Source: a virus | Strand: one strand, 5' to 3' | DNA: 26,493 nucleotides | Virus record (IMG/VR): IMGVR_UViG_3300009161_000192 | Span: 1-26,493 of that record | Shown here: positions 6,119 through 24,780 of the stretch, one piece after another | Layout: each line of letters opens with the position of its first letter | Numbering within the stretch: the first letter of the stretch is position 1 | Made by a program: the position numbers and the translations under genes | The notes under the pieces: generated by a model | Seen by the model: only the letters and a program-made list of their open reading frames with translations | Told to the model about the DNA's origin: nothing | Database searches by the model: none

Positions 6119-7132
6119 ATGGATACATACGCACGCACTACACTGTTAGAAAATATTGATAGCTTGGCGCCAGAGTCTGCAGTTAAGTTAAGTACACTAG
6201 TACTTGACACTCTTTCGCAAGCTTCTCTTCCGGCCGCGTCTACAAGACTAGACTCATATGTTCTGCCACAGGGTAAAGTTGCTAATCGACCTACCCCTGC
6301 AAAGAAAGTAGTCCCAGTCGTGTCAGCAGACGCTCTTGTTGGAACTGAACAAAAGTACATTCGCCCTAATGGTGAGGAATACCATTCACGTAAATGGGGA
6401 GAGCATGACGACGTTATGGTTCTCCGCAAAGCGCGAATGGACTCACAATACATTCTTCTGTACGGTGCTCCAGGTTGCGGTAAAACTGCACTGGTAGAAG
6501 CAGCGTTCGATGACATGTACACTATTCTTGGTACTGGTGACACAGAACTTTCAGATCTTATCGGAGGGTACATTCAAACTCCGACAGGTGGATTCGTCTG
6601 GGAAGATGGGCCACTGCTAAAAGCTGCAGAGCGCGGCGTTCCACTTCTCATTGATGAGATTGGTCTCGTTGATCCAAAGGTTCTTTCTGGAGCGTATGGC
6701 TTGATGGATGGTCGTCGAGAGTACACAGTCACTGCGAACCCAGAGCGTGGAACAGTAAAAGCAAAGGATGGATTCTATGTCATTGCTGCTACAAATCCAA
6801 ATGCGCCTGGAGTTCGAATCTCAGAAGCGCTTCTGTCTCGGTTTACTATTCAAGCAGAGATGACAACAGATTGGTTACTTGCTAAAAAGCTTGGAGCTTC
6901 TACTCAAGTTGTTACTGTTGCACAGAACATCAATCGTCGTCAGGCAGCTGGCGAGTGTAGTTGGTGTCCACAAATGCGTGAGTTGCTCGCGTTCCGCGAC
7001 ATCTCTAAATCGTTCGGTACGAAGTTTGCAATCGCAAACCTAATCGCCTCTGCTCCAGAGATGGACCGCCCCGTCGTTGCGGATGTTCTCACACGAGTCT
7101 ATGGCGAGGAGTGCCGTCCCGCGAAGATCTAA
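6119..7132 (+). CDS. MoxR-family AAA+ ATPase
   Basis: A 337-aa AAA+ ATPase. Walker A GAPGCGKT is at 116-123, Walker B LLIDE at 176-180, sensor 1 (ATNPN) around N226, and an arginine-finger candidate is R241 in LLSRF. The GxxELSDLIGGY segment (140-151) and the absence of a long C-terminal lid are typical of the MoxR branch. MoxR ATPases are known to work with VWA-domain proteins in remodelling or metal-insertion complexes, and such a partner lies at 7307. Residues 1-95 are not recognised and may recruit the partner. A terminator-like hairpin and a tRNA separate the two genes, so they are transcribed separately. Confidence 0.9.
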   Translation: MDTYARTTLLENIDSLAPESAVKLSTLVLDTLSQASLPAASTRLDSYVLPQGKVANRPTPAKKVVPVVSADALVGTEQKYIRPNGEEYHSRKWGEHDDVMVLRKARMDSQYILLYGAPGCGKTALVEAAFDDMYTILGTGDTELSDLIGGYIQTPTGGFVWEDGPLLKAAERGVPLLIDEIGLVDPKVLSGAYGLMDGRREYTVTANPERGTVKAKDGFYVIAATNPNAPGVRISEALLSRFTIQAEMTTDWLLAKKLGASTQVVTVAQNINRRQAAGECSWCPQMRELLAFRDISKSFGTKFAIANLIASAPEMDRPVVADVLTRVYGEECRPAKI

Positions 7133-7188: not shown

Positions 7189-7262
7189 AGGGCGGTAGCT
7201 CAGTTGGTTAGAGCCCCGGACTCATAATCCGGTCGTCGTCGGTTCGAGCCCGACCCGCCCTA
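7189..7262 (+). tRNA. tRNA with CAT anticodon (Met, or Ile2)
   Basis: A complete cloverleaf. Acceptor AGGGCGG pairs with CCGCCCT, the D arm is GCTC/GAGC, the anticodon arm CCGGA-CTCATAA-TCCGG has anticodon CAT at 7223-7225, the variable loop has 5 nt, and the T arm is GTCGG-TTCGAGC-CCGAC. The discriminator is A and no CCA is encoded. The anticodon stem lacks the three G-C pairs of initiators, so it is elongator Met or, if C34 is modified to lysidine, Ile for AUA codons. It has no promoter of its own type, and a phage promoter starts 7 nt after its 3' end. Confidence 0.93.
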
Positions 7263-7268
7263 CTTACC

Positions 7269-7306: not shown

Positions 7307-9103
7307 ATGGGACACATCAAAGTCTCTGCCACAAGGGCAGAGGTAACTCCAAGGGAGTGGCTGCAAGCTGGCGCTCAACTAGGAGACCTTGTTAACACAT
7401 GGGCAGGTCGTACCGACATTGTCGCGTACGTTGGTCCAGGAGCTGGTGGACAAACTCCAGCGTGTTTTAACCCGCAATTAGCAGAAGTTGAAGTCAATGT
7501 TAGCGTTGCCTTTGGCGCAGGTGTAAGTCCAGAGTTAATCGGTGATATTCGTTTACGTGATACACAGTTCGACTATCCTAGAGCGTCTGGAGCAATTTTC
7601 CATGAAGCGCTACACGCCCGGTACTCTCGATTTGATCTTTCTAAAGCTATCGAGGAACTTACTCCTTCAGAGTATCAGTCTCTTACATTACTAGAAGAAA
7701 CTCGCATTGAAAAGCTCGGAGTAGAAAACTTCCCAGCAAATCGAGTATTTCTTCGCGCATGTGCAATGGACATAGTTCTTTCAGAAATTAATGAACATCT
7801 AGATGAGTCAAACACTACTCGGGCAATTGGTAGCATTGCAGGACTCGTTCTTGCACGCATCGATGCAGGTTCGCTAGAAGAGGATGATGTCATTGAGGTA
7901 AAGAAGCTTGTTCTAGAGTTCTTAGGTGAAGAGACGTACGGCAAACTACGTAACGTGTGGCTTCGATTCCAAATGCATGATGATCATCGCAATCCAACTA
8001 ACTTGTATGTTCTTGCTAAAGAGTGGGATAAGATTCTTTCAGAAGTTGCAAAAGAAAGAGGAGAGCAAGAGCCAGTAAAAGGCACGCCTTCGATTATTGA
8101 AGCAATCATTGAAGAAATTCTCGATGAAATGAAAGAAGCTTCAGAGAATATCGCTATATCAGTAAACGATGATGCGCAGGATCAAGAGCAACAAGAAGAT
8201 TGGAAAGAAATAATCACCAACAGAGACAAGGCAGCTAAGGATCAGCGCGAAAACAAAAAGACTGCTGATGACGTTTTCAGTATGGACACTGCTGCGATAG
8301 CAGCATCCAAGACGCTATCTTCTCTTCTCGATGTTCGCAAGCCAGAGCCTAAGGAACGAGCAGCAGCAGTGAAGATTGCTCAAATGCTAGAAAAAGCTAA
8401 GTATCGTGAGCGCGATGAAAAGGAGATCAAGAGTATTCTTCCTCCAGGCAATCTTCGCACGCGCGCGATGGTTCAGAATGCTGCGTACAAAGCGCAAGGA
8501 TCGATGTTGCGCGCAGAACCTTGGCGTCGAACAGTGCGTAAGCACACTGATGATCCAACGTTAAACGTTGGTGTCATCGTTGATATCTCTGGTTCAATGA
8601 ACAAAGCAATGCAGCCAATGGCAGTCACTGCGTGGGCAATGTCGGAAGCAGTGCGTCGCGTACAAGGTAGATGCGCAATGGTGTATTACGGAAACGACGT
8701 GTTCCCTACACTCAAGCCAGGACAGCACCTTGACCAAGTTAATGTGTACTCTGCTCCTGATGGAACTGAAAAGTTTAACAAAGCATTCAAAGCTGTTGAT
8801 GGTGCATTGAATCTTATCAATGGAACTGGCGCTCGTCTTCTTGTAGTTGTGAGTGATGGTTGCTACGTTGAGAGTGAGGTAGCCGCAGCAAAAGAGTGGA
8901 TAAAGAAGTGTGACGCTAGTGGAGTTGCAGTGTTGTGGCTTCCATTTACTGAAAGCTTCCGTCTGAACTATGCGCGCGATATCATTCGTGGAACTTCAGC
9001 AGTTCTAATGGGCGACATAACAGACCCAGTAGATGCTGCTCTAGAAATCGGAAGAGCTGCTGCGACGGCTCTATCAAAGATTGGCAGCCGCCTGGCTGCC
9101 TAA
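7307..9103 (+). CDS. HExxH metallopeptidase-like protein with C-terminal VWA domain (CobT-like)
   Basis: A 598-aa protein. The N-terminal part has a zinc-metallopeptidase motif HEALH (99-103) followed by LLEETRIE (128-135), whose Glu could be the third ligand. This is the arrangement of DUF2201-type putative metallopeptidases. The middle (250-400) is acidic and Lys/Glu-rich, as in CobT. The C-terminal VWA domain carries the MIDAS motif DISGS (426-430), a candidate MIDAS threonine (T487) and D517 in VVVSDG. It is very likely the partner of the MoxR ATPase at 6119. VWA-MoxR pairs act as chaperone or metal-insertion machines, and the peptidase part suggests a regulated protease. The target is unknown. 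Confidence 0.88.
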   Translation: MGHIKVSATRAEVTPREWLQAGAQLGDLVNTWAGRTDIVAYVGPGAGGQTPACFNPQLAEVEVNVSVAFGAGVSPELIGDIRLRDTQFDYPRASGAIFHEALHARYSRFDLSKAIEELTPSEYQSLTLLEETRIEKLGVENFPANRVFLRACAMDIVLSEINEHLDESNTTRAIGSIAGLVLARIDAGSLEEDDVIEVKKLVLEFLGEETYGKLRNVWLRFQMHDDHRNPTNLYVLAKEWDKILSEVAKERGEQEPVKGTPSIIEAIIEEILDEMKEASENIAISVNDDAQDQEQQEDWKEIITNRDKAAKDQRENKKTADDVFSMDTAAIAASKTLSSLLDVRKPEPKERAAAVKIAQMLEKAKYRERDEKEIKSILPPGNLRTRAMVQNAAYKAQGSMLRAEPWRRTVRKHTDDPTLNVGVIVDISGSMNKAMQPMAVTAWAMSEAVRRVQGRCAMVYYGNDVFPTLKPGQHLDQVNVYSAPDGTEKFNKAFKAVDGALNLINGTGARLLVVVSDGCYVESEVAAAKEWIKKCDASGVAVLWLPFTESFRLNYARDIIRGTSAVLMGDITDPVDAALEIGRAAATALSKIGSRLAA

Positions 9104-9123
9104 CAGATCTGGTGCGGGCGGTA

Positions 9124-9136
9124 ATCCTTCCGTCAG
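9124..9136 (+). promoter_or_regulatory. Sequence complementary to the phage Shine-Dalgarno leader
   Basis: ATCCTTCCGTCAG in the gap between the VWA and subtilase genes is perfectly complementary over 13 nt to CTGACGGAAGGAT at 7287-7299, the leader and RBS of the VWA gene. Its core TCCTTCCGT also matches the ACGGAAGGA of many other leaders in the window. RNA from here could pair with those RBSs. Seen in sequence; any function is inferred. Confidence 0.35.
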
Positions 9137-9185
9137 ACGTGTGCCCCGTCCGTACCAGTTACTTTTACAAACAAACAATGACAAA

Positions 9186-10073
9186 ATGAAAAATAAAAAG
9201 CTAGCAATCATCGGCGCTTTTATTACAGCAGCAGCGTTACTCGCAGCTCCTGCTCATGCGGCCAATGAAAAATCAGTAGTAATTATCGATAGTGGCGTGG
9301 ATACGCAAGGCTTCCTTAAAAACTACATTGTTGATGAGGCGTGCTTCATTGAATACGGCAAGTGTCCAAACGGATTGAATTCAATGACCGGCGCGGGTGC
9401 TTCCCACATCTCCCCCACCTCTACCAAAGATCGTGTATTTAGTCACGGCTCGGAAATGGCGTCAGTAGTTATTGCCCGTAACCCAAATGTAAAGATTGTA
9501 ATGATTCGGATTATCGGCATGAGTTCAAACGGATTCGCAACTACCTTCACACCTAAAGCTGTTGAGTTAGCGTTGGCTTGGGTAAATGAAAACGCGGTAC
9601 GGTTAAATGTAACCGCCGTGCTTGCCTCAATGGGTCGTGAAAATAAAGGTGGCGTGTGTCAGATTGAAAAGCCACTCCAAGATTTAGTTATCTCACTTAA
9701 CGGCAAGGGAGCACAGGTAATTTCCTCAACGGGTAACATGGCGCGGAACTACATAGATTATCCGGCTTGTATCCCAGAGGTAGTTGCAGTTGGTGCAACC
9801 GATAAGCCTTACAAACTCAAAGGCTGGGGAATGATTCAACCCGTTCAACAAGCCTCAAACTACGGAGTCGAACTTGATTTCGTAATGCTTGGTTGGTTCA
9901 ACTCAACCACACTTGACGGAACAAAGAGAGATACCACTGGGACGTCTAACGCAGCGGCGGCGTTTGCTGGGCTCTGGAGTTCACTGAGCGGCGTATCGTT
10001 GGACTCTCTAAAGGCAACCGCGGGTACCAGTATGCGCGGCTTGACGCCTCTACCAAATACGTTCTTGAATTAA
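9186..10073 (+). CDS. Secreted subtilisin-like serine protease (S8)
   Basis: A 295-aa protein. ATG 9186 is chosen because a clear Sec signal peptide starts there: KNKK, a hydrophobic core at 7-20, and APAHA before the cleavage site. The longer frame to 9081 would bury it. The catalytic triad is D35 (VVIIDSGVD), H87 (FSHGSEMASV) and S254 (GTSNAAAA). Oxyanion Asn184 is in STGN. The mature form of about 270 aa has no propeptide or wall anchor that I can see. No strong SD or phage-type promoter precedes it, so it may be read from the VWA promoter. Secreted subtilases are rare in phages. Possible roles are host envelope or surface protein degradation, or release. Confidence 0.85.
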   Translation: MKNKKLAIIGAFITAAALLAAPAHAANEKSVVIIDSGVDTQGFLKNYIVDEACFIEYGKCPNGLNSMTGAGASHISPTSTKDRVFSHGSEMASVVIARNPNVKIVMIRIIGMSSNGFATTFTPKAVELALAWVNENAVRLNVTAVLASMGRENKGGVCQIEKPLQDLVISLNGKGAQVISSTGNMARNYIDYPACIPEVVAVGATDKPYKLKGWGMIQPVQQASNYGVELDFVMLGWFNSTTLDGTKRDTTGTSNAAAAFAGLWSSLSGVSLDSLKATAGTSMRGLTPLPNTFLN

Positions 10074-10574: not shown

Positions 10575-10604
10575 TTGTACTTTATAATAGATCTATGTTA
10601 TAAT
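10575..10604 (+). promoter_or_regulatory. Phage promoter with -35 and double TATAAT
   Basis: TTGTAC (10575-10580), an 18-bp spacer and TATAAT (10599-10604) preceded by TGT. A second TATAAT (10583-10588) lies within the spacer. It is almost identical to the promoter at 12911-12940. Confidence 0.85.
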
Positions 10605-10631
10605 AGTACTAACAACGACGGAAGGACTGGA

Positions 10632-12424: not shown

Positions 12425-12596
12425 AAACAAAAGTGCTGGGATCTGGGAAATACAAGACGTCAAGACTGGCGAGCGCATCTCTAAGTTTAGAGCGCGTCGG
12501 CACGCTGACGTGACCAGATACCTGGAAATGGCTCACATTGGGTTGAAGAGACCTATAGGCGACTTCGAGGCTGTATTCATTACAGATTGGGAATAA
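12408..12596 (+). CDS. Small basic hypothetical protein
   Basis: A 62-aa protein. GTG 12408 has AAGG about 5 nt upstream; TTG 12417 is an alternative. It overlaps the DUF3846-like gene by 17 nt. Strand-rich start (SAGIWEIQDVKTGERIS), then a basic segment (KFRARRHADVTRYLEM). No family recognised. Last gene of its unit; the next promoter starts 2 nt after its stop. Confidence 0.62.
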   Translation: MRSLAKNKSAGIWEIQDVKTGERISKFRARRHADVTRYLEMAHIGLKRPIGDFEAVFITDWE

Positions 12597-12598
12597 CC

Positions 12599-12607
12599 TG
12601 ATATAAT
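12599..12607 (+). promoter_or_regulatory. Phage promoter of a noncoding unit
   Basis: TGATATAAT then AGTATTAACAAC, exactly as before protein genes, but no ACGGAAGGA and no usable reading frame follow. Confidence 0.85.
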
Positions 12608-12613
12608 AGTATT

Positions 12614-12905
12614 AACAACTTAATACTAGGTTTGGACTTACTGAATCTTGGGGCATACGGGTATCTCATGGAGACACTACTCCCAATAAGCCGACGGTTA
12701 CCGCAGGGTAACTTGGTTCAGGAAAGAGACCGGAACAATACTAACTTAGAGAAGTTCGGAGTAAAACCTGATAGCCGGAAGGCATGATCCACATCAGATA
12801 GTGCGCAAAAAGTGAAGCGCGACTCAAGCTCTTGGTGCGTGAAAGTCTGTCCACTTTTTTGAGGCTGGCTGCTGTCTTGTTGACTGCGGTCAGCCTCATT
12901 CTTTT
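12614..12905 (+). ncRNA. Structured noncoding RNA of about 290 nt, family unknown
   Basis: Between the promoter at 12599 and the terminator at 12861-12905 there is no gene, but a series of hairpins. TTGGG/CCCAA (12648-12652/12682-12686) encloses GTATCTC/GAGACAC. GTTACC-GCAG-GGTAAC is at 12697-12712, and GTTCAGG/CCGGAAC (one mismatch) at 12716-12736. AACTT-AGAG-AAGTT is at 12743-12756. CTGAT/ATCAG (12768-12772/12793-12797) holds GCC-GGAA-GGC. CAAAAAGTG (12806-12814) pairs with CACTTTTTTG (12852-12861). I see no tmRNA, RNase P or 6S signature. Exact ends are inferred. Confidence 0.72.
12861..12905 (+). terminator. Rho-independent terminator of the noncoding RNA
   Basis: GAGGCTGGCTGC (12861-12872) pairs with GCGGTCAGCCTC (12886-12897), interrupted by one or two mismatches, with a 13-nt loop, then ATTCTTTTAT. 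Confidence 0.85.
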
Positions 12906-12910
12906 ATATA

Positions 12911-12940
12911 GTGTACTTTATAATAGATACATGTTATAAT
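12911..12940 (+). promoter_or_regulatory. Phage promoter with -35 and double TATAAT
   Basis: GTGTAC (12911-12916), 18 bp, TATAAT (12935-12940) preceded by TGT. A second TATAAT lies in the spacer, as at 10575-10604. Confidence 0.85.
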
Positions 12941-12968
12941 TAAACTAACAACGACGGAAGGATAGAAG

Positions 12969-16095: not shown

Positions 16096-16668
16096 TTGAC
16101 TACTCTTGTCGCAATTCAAGGTGACGGTTGGACAGCTATCGCATGTGATTCTCGTTCTTCAGGAGAAGGCGGACGCATGCTTGAAATGGCAACGCATAAA
16201 GTTGTAGAAAACAATGGAGTTCTTATTGCTGGAGCTGGCTCGGGTCGCGGTTCTAACATTATGCAATTCGGTTTAGTAGCTCCACGCCCAACAGCTGCAC
16301 AGAAAAAAGATCTAGACTCTTTTGTTACAAAAATATTTATACCAGAGATGCGAGCAAAGTTTATCGAAGCTGGCTACGATATGAAAGAAGACGGCGAGTC
16401 CGCTGCGCATGACTCTGAGTTCATCATATCAATATGCGGAGTTCTATATCCAATATACGAAGATTACTCATGGGACAGAGAAGAACGCAACATATATTAT
16501 GCTGGAAGTGGTTCAGATTTAGCGATAGGCGCATTAGAAGCTCTAAACTACTCTAAGTGTAAAACTCCAGAAGCTGCAGAGAAGCTTTTGCGGCGCGCTG
16601 TAGAAATTGCAGTTAAGCACGACATCTACTCCGGTGGAACCGTTCATACTTTTGTTCAAGAAGCTTGA
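16096..16668 (+). CDS. Proteasome beta/HslV-like Ntn hydrolase
   Basis: A 190-aa protein starting at TTG 16096 behind GGAGGA. Removing Met1 exposes Thr2, the expected nucleophile (TTLVAIQGDGWTAIACD). The Asp (D18) in ACDSR and Lys35 (HKV) sit near the positions of D17 and K33 in proteasome beta subunits, and AGSGSDLAIGALEAL matches the conserved helix start of HslV and beta subunits. Known members assemble into rings with a AAA+ unfoldase. There is no HslU or Mpa gene here, and the only AAA+ in the window is MoxR. Size is normal for HslV. It could work with a host unfoldase or act as a self-processing Ntn hydrolase. Confidence 0.85.
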   Translation: MTTLVAIQGDGWTAIACDSRSSGEGGRMLEMATHKVVENNGVLIAGAGSGRGSNIMQFGLVAPRPTAAQKKDLDSFVTKIFIPEMRAKFIEAGYDMKEDGESAAHDSEFIISICGVLYPIYEDYSWDREERNIYYAGSGSDLAIGALEALNYSKCKTPEAAEKLLRRAVEIAVKHDIYSGGTVHTFVQEA

Positions 16669-16735: not shown

Positions 16736-16960
16736 ATGGCACTAACAGATGAGACATACCTCATAGAAACACAAGCGTGTTCCTGGTGCGGTAAAAATGG
16801 AGTCGTTGAAGTTCCAGCAGTTGGATTTCTTGCACGTCAACTAGGTGCACTTATTCAAGAAGCTTACCCAGACTTAAGCGCACCTTTGCGTGAACAACTA
16901 AAGACTGGGTATCACCCAGAGTGCTGGACAGAAATGTTTGGTACCGAAGAAAACGAATAA
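16736..16960 (+). CDS. Small zinc-binding protein
   Basis: A 74-aa protein. ATG 16736 follows the RBS; ATG 16718 lies upstream of it. CSWC (15-18) with HPEC (61-64) form a zinc site that brackets a helical middle. First gene of the phosphatase-deacetylase unit, and its stop overlaps the next start. Function unknown. Confidence 0.72.
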   Translation: MALTDETYLIETQACSWCGKNGVVEVPAVGFLARQLGALIQEAYPDLSAPLREQLKTGYHPECWTEMFGTEENE

Positions 16961-17523
16961 TGACTATAGATAAAAGAGGAAAAATGACAAACAACGTAGA
17001 GACAAATACAGAAGCATACGCACCTGACTATAGCATTTCAGATTGGGATTTCCCTCTCTGGAGTGAGATTCTGCCAAGACTATGGGTCGGTGGCACAGAC
17101 GATGACGACACTCTAGAATTTAGAACACATCTAGATCAAGATAGAAACATAACTAAAGATGACTTTGATACGGTCATCACCTTGTACGCTTGGGCACGAC
17201 CAACAGACTGGTTAGTCGAAGAACTTCGTTATGGTTTCTATGATTCAGAAATTTCTCACATCGATATGCCAACGCTAATCAACGCTGTCAATCACGCGTA
17301 CGACGCTTGGGTATCTGGTAAGCGTGTTCTTATTCGTTGTCAAGCTGGGTTAAACCGTTCCGGTCTAACTGCAACGCTTGTTCTTATGCAAGCCGGATTT
17401 ACTGCTAAAGATGCTATAGCGCTTCTCCGTGCAAAAAGAACTCATCATGTTCTCTGTAACGAGCAATTCGAAACGTTTCTTCTAGCTCTTGATGTTGCTA
17501 AGGAGATTAATGAAAAAGAATAA
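16960..17523 (+). CDS. Dual-specificity protein phosphatase
   Basis: A 187-aa protein. The signature loop IRCQAGLNRSG (125-135) gives C127 as nucleophile and R133 as phosphate-binding Arg in the CX5R motif; an IRC start in place of the usual VHC is a small deviation. The general-acid Asp is probably in the HIDMP loop (D102). LWVGG at 41-45 is the typical N-terminal strand of small DSPs. It should dephosphorylate Ser/Thr/Tyr on proteins, or possibly RNA 5' ends or nucleotides. Start taken from the TAATG overlap; ATG 16984 is possible. Coupled to the deacetylase gene. Confidence 0.87.
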   Translation: MTIDKRGKMTNNVETNTEAYAPDYSISDWDFPLWSEILPRLWVGGTDDDDTLEFRTHLDQDRNITKDDFDTVITLYAWARPTDWLVEELRYGFYDSEISHIDMPTLINAVNHAYDAWVSGKRVLIRCQAGLNRSGLTATLVLMQAGFTAKDAIALLRAKRTHHVLCNEQFETFLLALDVAKEINEKE

Positions 17524-18433
17524 GTTACATATTGCGTACGATGACGTCTACTTAAAGTGGAAGCTAGGGCACACTGATAGCAGTCACCCTACTAACCCAA
17601 TTCGTGCAAAGATAGCTACAGAAATGCTATCAACTGAGTTTGATGTAGAAATACTAACTCCTAATGCTACAGTCATTGATCGTGACAGACTTGGTCTTGT
17701 GCACAGTAGCAGTTACATATCTGAAGTACTTGACGATGGCTGCAGTAGCGAGTGGTTCCCTGACAGCATAGAAAAAGGACAAGTAGCTTTAGAAATGTTT
17801 GCGGGCACAGCTCGCTGTGCTGAAAAGATTGTTTCAGGAGAAGCTACCATAGCTTTCAATCCGCAAGGAGCAAAACACCACGCGCAGCGAAAAAACAGTT
17901 CTGGTTTCTGTGTGTTCAACGACATGGCATGGGCAGCTCTTGATTTTAATGCACGCGGATACAAAGTTATGTACATAGACTGGGATGCGCATCACGGAGA
18001 TGGAGTAGAAAACATTTTGCGTGACCACTACGACATTATTACTGCCAGCATTCATGACTCTGTTATTTTTCCAGGCACAGGGCTAAACGGGCACTCGCCT
18101 GACGAAGGAGTCTACAACTGGGCGTTAGACCCAGCAAGTGATGACAAAGCTTTTGCATCAGCGATGATTGAAATAGAAGCTCTTGCTGACAAAGTAAAAC
18201 CAGACATCGTCTTGCTAGCTACAGGAGCTGACGCGCATATTACTGATCCATTATCCACTCTTATGTTCGATTATCCAGGATACACGCATGCGGCTGAAGC
18301 AGTAGCAAGAATCGCAAATAAGTATTCTCAAGGTAGAGTTCTTATCGGCGGCGCTGGAGGGTACCAACCTTTTGACCATACTCCTAAAATTTGGGCAACT
18401 GTTGTTTCGCAGATCTATCGCAATGTGTTATAA
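17510..18433 (+). CDS. Histone deacetylase-family amidohydrolase
   Basis: A 307-aa protein with AAGGAG before ATG 17510, overlapping the phosphatase by 14 nt. It has the full HDAC/acetylpolyamine amidohydrolase motif set: HH at 123-124 with GFCVFND, the zinc ligands D159 and H161 in DWDAHHGDG, D241 in GADAHITDPL, and GGY (Y285) near the end. It should hydrolyse acetyl-lysine or acetylated polyamines. In bacteria the family includes protein deacetylases such as AcuC and polyamine deacetylases; the substrate cannot be chosen from sequence. Paired with a phosphatase, it could reset host protein modifications. Confidence 0.9.
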   Translation: MKKNKLHIAYDDVYLKWKLGHTDSSHPTNPIRAKIATEMLSTEFDVEILTPNATVIDRDRLGLVHSSSYISEVLDDGCSSEWFPDSIEKGQVALEMFAGTARCAEKIVSGEATIAFNPQGAKHHAQRKNSSGFCVFNDMAWAALDFNARGYKVMYIDWDAHHGDGVENILRDHYDIITASIHDSVIFPGTGLNGHSPDEGVYNWALDPASDDKAFASAMIEIEALADKVKPDIVLLATGADAHITDPLSTLMFDYPGYTHAAEAVARIANKYSQGRVLIGGAGGYQPFDHTPKIWATVVSQIYRNVL

Positions 18434-23704: not shown

Positions 23705-24250
23705 TACATTTATTACAAATGATCTAGCTACATCAGTGTACTAATACACTACACTAGATCTATTATATAGCATGTACCTAATGCTACTAATGTATACACG
23801 CACGCGCCCTGTGCTTAACACGTCTACACAGAAGAGCGCAGGTTACTCGTCAGTAACATACACACAAGCTTACAAAAGAAAATATAAATAGCAAGTATAA
23901 CTTCTATTGATCTATAGAAAATTAAATCATAGATACTAAAATAAATAATCTAATACTTATATAGATAAAGATTAAACATTCAATGCTTAGGTATACTTGA
24001 TCCTAATAGTAATAGATCTACCTAATCTACACATATATCTAATACTTGTTGGTTACGCCACGTACATACACCAACTTATTTTATTTTTTATTTATTACTC
24101 GTAAAGTTTACAAAAACTTTTTTACATTGAAAAAATAACTCGAGACGTTTTAACGGTTCGTCCAATATAACGATTGCCCATTCTCGCCTCCAAGCCATTT
24201 AACCTTAAGGTACTGCTTCGTCGATTTGTACATCATCTTATCACCGCAGT
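23705..24250 (+). other. AT-rich noncoding region, candidate origin or packaging region
   Basis: About 545 bp with no supported gene and a clearly higher AT content than the rest of the window. It contains the nested inverted repeat at 23721-23760, hairpins at 23842-23857 (GTTACT-CGTC-AGTAAC) and 24048-24075 (GTTGGT/ACCAAC), ATCTAATACTT twice (23948-23958, 24037-24047), several GATCTA or AGATCT motifs, and A/T runs near 24105-24135. It lies between the lysis genes and the structural operon. An origin of replication or a packaging site are the main candidates. Confidence 0.6.
23721..23760. repeat. Nested inverted repeat
   Basis: GATCTAG (23721-23727) and CTAGATC (23754-23760) enclose AGTGTA-CTAA-TACACT (23735-23750). 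The structure can form a two-part cruciform or hairpin on either strand, and has no T-run after it, so it is not a terminator. Confidence 0.75.
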
Positions 24251-24277
24251 TTGTACATAAACGTCTCCGAAGATGAT
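24232..24277. promoter_or_regulatory. Operator-like inverted repeat at the late promoter
   Basis: ATCATCTT (24232-24239) and AAGATGAT (24270-24277) are perfect 8-bp arms around 30 bp; the right arm touches the -10 element of the 24289 promoter. TTTGTACAT occurs twice (24225-24233 and 24250-24258). Confidence 0.5.
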
Positions 24278-24288
24278 ACAGTATTCAC
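24274..24288 (+). promoter_or_regulatory. Promoter for leaderless structural operon
   Basis: TGATACAGT: TG extension and TACAGT -10 (24277-24282), six bases, then ATG 24289. TTGTAC (24251-24256) could be a -35 but with a 20-bp spacer. No Shine-Dalgarno sequence. Confidence 0.55.
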
Positions 24289-24780
24289 ATGGCTAAAGCA
24301 CCGAGTCTCCCGCAAAAGGAGAAAGATCTTCTCGCCTCGCTCGAGAAGGAAAAACTTTGGCGCAGAGTTCAAGAACTTTCAGAGGCAGGATGGTCGCTGC
24401 AATCGATCGCTGATGCGTTTTCTTCACCGCGACGTAGATCCACGATACGCTCCTGGGTAGTTAAACCCTTGCCTGAGTCTGTCACCGCGTTGGGTAATGT
24501 TCCAAAGCCCCCGGAAAAAAAGAAACGATCAAATAGAAAAAGGCCGCCTTCGCCTGGTATATCTCTAGATGATCAATTGCGTATTGCGCGACTGTCACCG
24601 CTAGCGCGTAGGTATCGTGCTCGTACACGTCCGAATAGCTCCTCTCGTATGGCTAATGAGGAGCTTACGTACCTGGCAGGTGCGTTATACTCCTCAGGAG
24701 TTTCAGTGTCTGAGCTTGCCCGTGCGTCAGGAGTCACCTACCGCGCGATGAAACGTCGCGTAGATAAGGCATCTCTATGA
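24289..24780 (+). CDS. Protein with two HTH motifs, first gene of structural operon
   Basis: A 163-aa basic protein. N-terminal HTH-like segment at 24-57 (ELSEAGWSLQSIADAFSS...STIRSW), a Pro/Lys/Arg-rich linker (71-90), then RIARLSPLARRYR and a second HTH (139-158, SVSELARASGVTYRAMKRRV). Same layout as the protein at 14575, including WSLQSIA/WTLQSIA and the LSPLA/LQPLA box. It could regulate late genes or recognise packaging DNA; first position before the portal operon would suit either. Overlaps the next gene by ATGA. Confidence 0.78.
   Translation: MAKAPSLPQKEKDLLASLEKEKLWRRVQELSEAGWSLQSIADAFSSPRRRSTIRSWVVKPLPESVTALGNVPKPPEKKKRSNRKRPPSPGISLDDQLRIARLSPLARRYRARTRPNSSSRMANEELTYLAGALYSSGVSVSELARASGVTYRAMKRRVDKASL

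Follow-up and report, generated by a model that had tools for sequence, protein, structure and literature searches.

To our knowledge, few families of structured non-coding RNA carried by phages have been defined, and their roles are mostly not established. Among phage RNAs, GOLLD and ROOL assemble into cages made solely of RNA, with GOLLD combining a constant region and a variable one (PMC12286853). RNA anti-CRISPRs (Racr, rAcrVIA1) target host immune proteins, in the case of rAcrVIA1 by structural mimicry (PMC12948488). Here, we analyze a non-coding stretch (12597-12968) of a viral IMG/VR record, which was considered in its entirety (26,493 bp, referred to as the window). An initial annotation had proposed that positions 12599-12905 encode a promoter-driven structured non-coding RNA of no known family, a claim that is supported both by covarying stems and by a negative Rfam search (see below).

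Organization of the locus

Positions 12599-12905 contain the house promoter of the phage, a folded RNA body of 219 nt (12634-12852) and a terminator, without a conserved open reading frame (ORF). The promoter (12579-12607, + strand) consists of ATTACA, a spacer of 17 nt and TATAAT with a TG extension, as found by a scan for sigma-70-like sites and by the house motif. The extended -10 element TGATATAAT at 12599-12607 ranks among the top sigma-70-like sites of the window portion that was scanned. It matches the house motif CTGWTATAATWRNNCTA, for which the window holds 26 matches versus 4.7 expected (as many in 0 of 100 shuffles), in agreement with the initial annotation, which had recognized the standard promoter of the phage. 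The intrinsic terminator (12861-12910, + strand) is formed by a hairpin at 12861-12898, a strong stem in the fold, and a T-rich tail; the strong terminator noted earlier is thus confirmed. The previously given length of about 290 nt holds for the predicted transcript but not for the conserved body, which measures 219 nt.

Promoter and terminator are present in homologues as well, the terminator as a hairpin of different sequence at the equivalent position. The segment from the -10 element to helix P1 (12608-12633, + strand) comprises 26 nt in the window and 6-27 nt in homologues. The shortest distance, 6 nt in L173, indicates that transcription can start at P1 itself, and neither a leader nor a ribosome binding site would fit into it. 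In the type-D members L022 and L024 no TATAAT occurs within 60 nt 5' of P1, hence the promoter is not universal in the family. A tandem promoter and a ribosome site of its own precede the gene 3' of the window terminator. Two overlapping -10 boxes (TACTTTATAATAGATACATGTTATAATTAAACTA) are located at 12912-12960 and at 10576-10624 of the window (repeat identity 90%), constituting a tandem promoter module that is also present in relatives.

Comparative evidence for the fold

Folding energy alone is weak evidence for a structured RNA, with z = -2.4 for the + strand versus -3.45 for the reverse strand. Comparison of homologous sequences argues strongly for the predicted fold. Alignment A3 comprises 10 distinct sequences aligned by MAFFT without structure, the structure being taken from RNAalifold. 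Under this structure, which derives from the very alignment tested, 95.6% of cells are paired and 14 base pairs display changes on both sides; neither value was reached by any of 500 shuffles, which ignore relatedness. Sliding the partner by 1-3 columns as a control left 0-2 pairs with both-side changes.

Independent support is provided by helices P2 and P9, whose pairing is held in distant members not used for deriving the structure. P2 reads CUGAAUC/GGUUCAG, CUAAGUC/GACUUAG or CUAGGUC/GAUCUAG in subtype A and CUAGACC/GGUCUAG in subtype B, while P9 reads AGACAG/CUGUCU in subtype A and AGCAGAU/AUCUGCU or AGUAAAU/GUUUACU in subtype B. In the model-fitted alignment A6 of subtypes A and B, both-side changes affect 5 of 7 pairs of P2 and all 7 pairs of P9; only helices 1-4 and 6 of A6 were used, because this alignment scrambles the interior of arm 2 for subtype B. 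Covarying stems in homologues, proposed by the initial annotation as a test, are hence found within A3 (14 pairs) and, for P2 and P9, across subtypes. We regard it as nearly certain that the locus is a real structured RNA gene.

Anatomy of the RNA

The conserved body of subtype A (12634-12852, + strand, as are all elements below) matches our covariance model R1 with 197.6 bits and contains the 14 both-side-changed pairs of A3. At least six hairpins were described initially; instead of independent ones, the data show a closing helix, P1, and two branched arms. P1 joins the ends of the RNA, pairing UGGAC (12633-12637) with GUCCA (12849-12853); it covaries in A3 and occurs in relatives as UGGAC/GUCCA, UGGGC/GCCCA, UUGGAAC/GUUCCAA and UUGAAC/GUUCAA.

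Arm 1 (P2-P3-P4) is based on P2, in which CUGAAUC (12641-12647) pairs with GGUUCAG (12715-12721), with covariation in both A3 and A6. P2 encloses P3 and the variable hairpin P4 (GUUACC-GCAG-GGUAAC, 12697-12712), the latter seen in the fold and in A3. P3 (12652-12692) is the core hairpin, common to the four subtypes of the family and matched by covariance model R2 with 46-88 bits in A-D. It is built from a base stem, an asymmetric internal loop AUAC/AAUAA (RUAM/RANAA), a GGG/CCC step, a CU bulge, an upper stem and an AUG triloop. The upper stem varies between UCUC/GAGA, UCCC/GGGA, ACCGC/GCGGU, UCCAC/GUGGA and UCUGCC/GGCAGA, and one type-D member displays UGG/CCA in place of GGG/CCC, a compensated change. 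For P3, the hallmark of the family, the listed members yield the consensus RUAM-nGGU-[stem, triloop]-(G or AC)UA(C/A)UCC-n-ANAAG. The internal loop presumably resembles the UAA/GAN motif. A palindromic CAUG triloop was considered as a site of dimerization and dismissed, as it is not preserved in every member.

Arm 2 extends from P9 to P6/P7. At its base, P9 pairs AGAC (12727-12730) with GUCU (12845-12848), followed by AGAG/CUCU, by P8 and by the hairpins P6 and P7. AGAG (12748-12751), first described as a hairpin loop, probably pairs with CUCU (12829-12832): relatives also have AGGG/CCCU at this place, with one both-side-changed pair (A3 helix 8). A hairpin loop at AGAG with a pseudoknot was also considered; a long irregular arm fits the comparative data better. 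P8 pairs GAGU (12759-12762) with ACUC (12822-12825) and occurs as GAGU/ACUC and GAUU/AAUC (A3 helix 9). P6 (12768-12797) consists of CUGAU/AUCAG with a conserved loop (AGC, AUC-AC) and has 3 both-side-changed pairs (A3 helix 10). Within P6, the RNA of the window alone bears an insert GCC-GGAA-GGC (12774-12783), which confirms the GNRA-like loop mentioned initially but restricts it to the window. P7 (12803-12820) has the sequence GCGC-AAAAAGUGAA-GCGC and is conserved in subtype A (A3 helix 12).

Coding potential and downstream genes

No ribosome binding site follows the promoter, and the longest ORFs on the + strand, 39 amino acids from ATG and 51 from TTG, are not preserved in homologues, in line with the initial view of a non-coding RNA without ribosome binding site or gene after the promoter. 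Alignment gaps of 1, 2, 5, 8 and 13 nt are mostly not multiples of 3, and the frame is broken. A tiny ORF starting at the AUG of P3, which is preceded by AAGGG and kept in most members, was rejected, as its frame differs between subtypes and most codon changes alter the residue. The AUG of the triloop does not act as a start codon, given that it is replaced by GUG in L201/L202 and by ACU in L022. A gene on the minus strand was likewise rejected, its frame being broken in the window, L028 and L031.

The locus might be viewed as non-functional, be it by chance folding or as remnant DNA, or as an unrecognized gene for a small protein. The modest z-scores, better on the reverse strand, and an open reverse frame of 50-67 amino acids in several subtype-A members would fit this reading; however, the covariation in A3 and in P2 and P9, the frames broken in other members, the gap lengths and the exchanges in the P3 triloop make it barely conceivable.

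In attenuators, a terminator usually comes directly after a structured element. The RNA of the window displays this layout, which would suit a leader acting in cis on the downstream gene, be it a riboswitch, an attenuator or an antiterminator. However, the genes 3' of the terminator belong to many families, encoding a small membrane protein (window), a WGR-like protein (L168) or various unrelated small proteins (other carriers), and nearly all of them have their own -10 box 3' of the terminator. Since downstream genes vary almost from phage to phage and possess their own promoters, cis regulation is very unlikely. An action of the RNA in trans, conversely, appears very likely.

Family, distribution and accessory nature

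By blastn, homologues with 62-82% identity are found in related phage contigs, mostly just 3' of the same gene pair. Based on the locus list, later IMG/VR pattern scans and the covariance models R1 and R2, 30 IMG/VR contigs besides the window carry homologues, falling into subtypes A (14; the subtype of the window), B (6), C (5) and D (5). P1, the P2 arm and the near-invariant hairpin P3 are common to the four subtypes; the remainder is rebuilt. Although this includes arm 2, body length stays at 205-232 nt in all subtypes. Subtype D was first seen in L168; L022 was assigned to it by an R2 match (E 0.01), and the assignment is borne out by L022 being 69-71% identical to L168 and L169. The search pattern GGTTACCGCAGGGTAAC in part matched unrelated contigs. 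Pattern matches in L193-L195, L197, L199 and L200, as well as weak matches of R2 to other genomes (E 0.09-0.9), were discarded, as they lack P1 and P2 and resemble coding sequence. The P3 pattern, the only host-side test, was found in 0 of 84,980 prokaryote genomes, a plasmid search with the RNA of the window gave no match, and no prokaryote-genome locus was found for the window terminase. This terminase shares 79% identity with its counterpart in DSL-LC01, a Dishui Lake phage whose assembly spans 129 kb and which its authors regard as an actinobacteriophage (PMC10611076); R1, R2 and blastn did not detect the RNA in DSL-LC01. The carriers are freshwater phages and, presumably, actinophages.

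Each carrier record of 99-131 kb contains a single copy of a single subtype. On a terminase (TerL) tree of 31 rows, presence of the RNA is patchy and requires no fewer than 5 gains or losses, of which strongly supported branches force 2; most negative records used span 8-10 kb upstream of terminase, absence in a fragment being no proof. L097 and L099, which have no RNA, are nested in the subtype-C clade, and in both (L099:3739-3849, L097:2089-2198) the promoter abuts a type-C terminator while the RNA body is missing. Given this position and the surviving promoter and terminator, a natural deletion of the body is the best reading. The cassette, whose neighbours are small genes that are prone to turnover and have promoters of their own, has been gained, lost and moved; as judged from these genomes, the RNA is accessory and dispensable.

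These data also bear on the reading as a self-assembling RNA or one bound by a phage protein, i.e. a packaging-type RNA, a scaffold or a cage like those of GOLLD and ROOL. The closed P1 and the three-way branching are reminiscent of phi29 pRNA, and RNA-only cages are on record for phages (see above). However, phages whose terminases are closely related do without the RNA, and L097/L099 have lost it, so it is not needed for packaging; moreover, it is much smaller than GOLLD, with no Rfam match to GOLLD or ROOL. We consider this explanation unlikely, and the packaging RNA put forward in the initial annotation is made improbable by the absence from close relatives and the loss event.

Several other elements were observed. 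A non-coding segment of about 170 nt (24120-24288) before the gene at 24289-24780 is conserved (~63-93%) in about 45 terminase relatives; it is far more widespread than the RNA and could be a packaging or regulatory site. Adjacent genes at 17489-18433 and 16921-17523 encode a histone-deacetylase-fold protein (179 bits) and a dual-specificity phosphatase. Genes at 6119-7132, 7307-9103, 9081-10073 and 16096-16668 encode a MoxR-like AAA ATPase and, next to it, a large protein with a DISGS motif, a subtilase and an HslV/proteasome-like protease. The DISGS motif of the large protein suggests a VWA domain, although it has no Pfam or PHROG match; in DSL-LC01, the neighbour of the AAA ATPase is annotated as cobalamin biosynthesis. 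In L027 (1245-1390) a house promoter precedes some 110 nt that contain CCAGCCGCTGG and lack an obvious gene, possibly another small RNA.

Possible mode of action

Our best explanation treats the locus as an independent gene of freshwater actinophages whose product, an accessory structured RNA, acts in trans. The RNA would be made during infection and would present P3 to a protein, most likely one of the host, which it may sequester or redirect; the remainder could serve as scaffold or as a variable specificity part. The outcome of the contact would be host takeover or counter-defence. We tentatively favour this model as the best explanation as a whole, at somewhat less than even probability. 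A host protein is preferred because of the cassette setting, in which the RNA behaves like optional host-interaction genes, and RNA anti-CRISPRs show that phage RNAs can act on host proteins (PMC12948488). Binding of a host protein is the least certain step, and we propose it with reserve. Host interference or a protein decoy, both among the initial guesses, is our tentative leading reading. In a narrower version, the RNA would form a new class for counter-defence or host takeover, in which the constant P3 captures a host protein and the rest is an allelic specificity or scaffold domain with one allele per genome; this we consider rather doubtful. Known counter-defence genes were not identified beside the RNA.

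The main rival to protein capture is a trans-acting small RNA that base-pairs with mRNAs of host or phage, its structure providing stability and display of a seed (P6/P7 loop). A stand-alone unit of promoter and terminator is the usual form of such RNAs, and the loops of P6 (AGC..AUCGAC) and P7 (AAAAAGUGAA) are conserved within subtypes. On the other hand, the P7 loop is not preserved in L033 and L173, nor is the P6 loop in subtypes C and D, and what is conserved across subtypes is the internal loop and bulge of P3, a structured hairpin rather than an open, single-stranded seed. Base-pairing regulation therefore seems a minor possibility. The conservation of P3 would fit equally with binding of a phage protein, an RNA-RNA contact or a tertiary fold, and the hairpin could serve mainly as a stability element.

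The way the RNA comes and goes in patches among phages of lake actinobacteria suggests that it takes part in their struggle with the host. Its function can be approached directly, as about 30 carriers in four subtypes are available, the constant module has been pinpointed, the ends are nearly exact and deletions occur naturally.

Comparison with known RNA classes

Searching the window against Rfam 15 (4227 models) at the gathering cut-off yielded only a tRNA elsewhere, i.e. a tRNA-Met (CAT) gene adjoining a hairpin at 7189-7263, the sole Rfam match of the window. At permissive E-values, one member each of A, B, C and D gave nothing near the cut-off. The comparison with all of Rfam recommended by the initial annotation has thus been performed, and no family matched the RNA. 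A self-cleaving or otherwise catalytic RNA might be suspected from the compact branched fold and the invariant nucleotides of the internal loop, but no Rfam ribozyme family was matched and we deem this highly improbable. Ro60 (TROVE), reverse transcriptase and TnpB or Cas12f-type nucleases were each found in 0 of 6 carrier records, which for Ro60 extend up to 131 kb and do not reach a host Ro. A Y RNA, a retron RNA and a TnpB omega RNA or Cas12f guide scaffold are disfavoured by these missing partner genes.

With 6S RNA, tmRNA and RNase P RNA the RNA shares the character of a stable bacterial or phage RNA of about 150-400 nt; it differs from them in having no match in Rfam or by ARAGORN (tRNA-like domain plus tag frame, for tmRNA), which bears out the initial statement that their signatures are absent. 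An RNase P-like GGAAAG after P2 was dismissed, being absent in other subtypes and without Rfam match. RNA anti-CRISPRs would be similar if the RNA acts on host immune proteins, and they too are accessory cassettes. They differ in that no direct or inverted repeats were reported at 12560-12960, by a search that a single copy of a CRISPR-repeat mimic would escape, and no known family is matched; the comparison concerns the way of working only. The pRNA of phi29 type is alike in its helix-joined ends, three-way branching, similar order of size and a structure that is kept while the sequence drifts; it differs in that the present RNA is dispensable and has no Rfam match. Such a pRNA contacts the portal and the ATPase, assembles into a ring through loop-loop pairing and, being required for packaging, is expected in all relatives that use the same motor. 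GOLLD and ROOL are likewise structured, stand-alone non-coding RNAs of phages, and the combination of a constant with a variable region is a trait that GOLLD shares with the family described here. In contrast, both are much larger and often close to tRNA islands, and neither matches the RNA in sequence or structure, their Rfam profiles included. A search of the open-access literature yielded no description of this RNA. Taken together, it is a new RNA family within a known broad kind, the phage-borne orphan structured RNAs.
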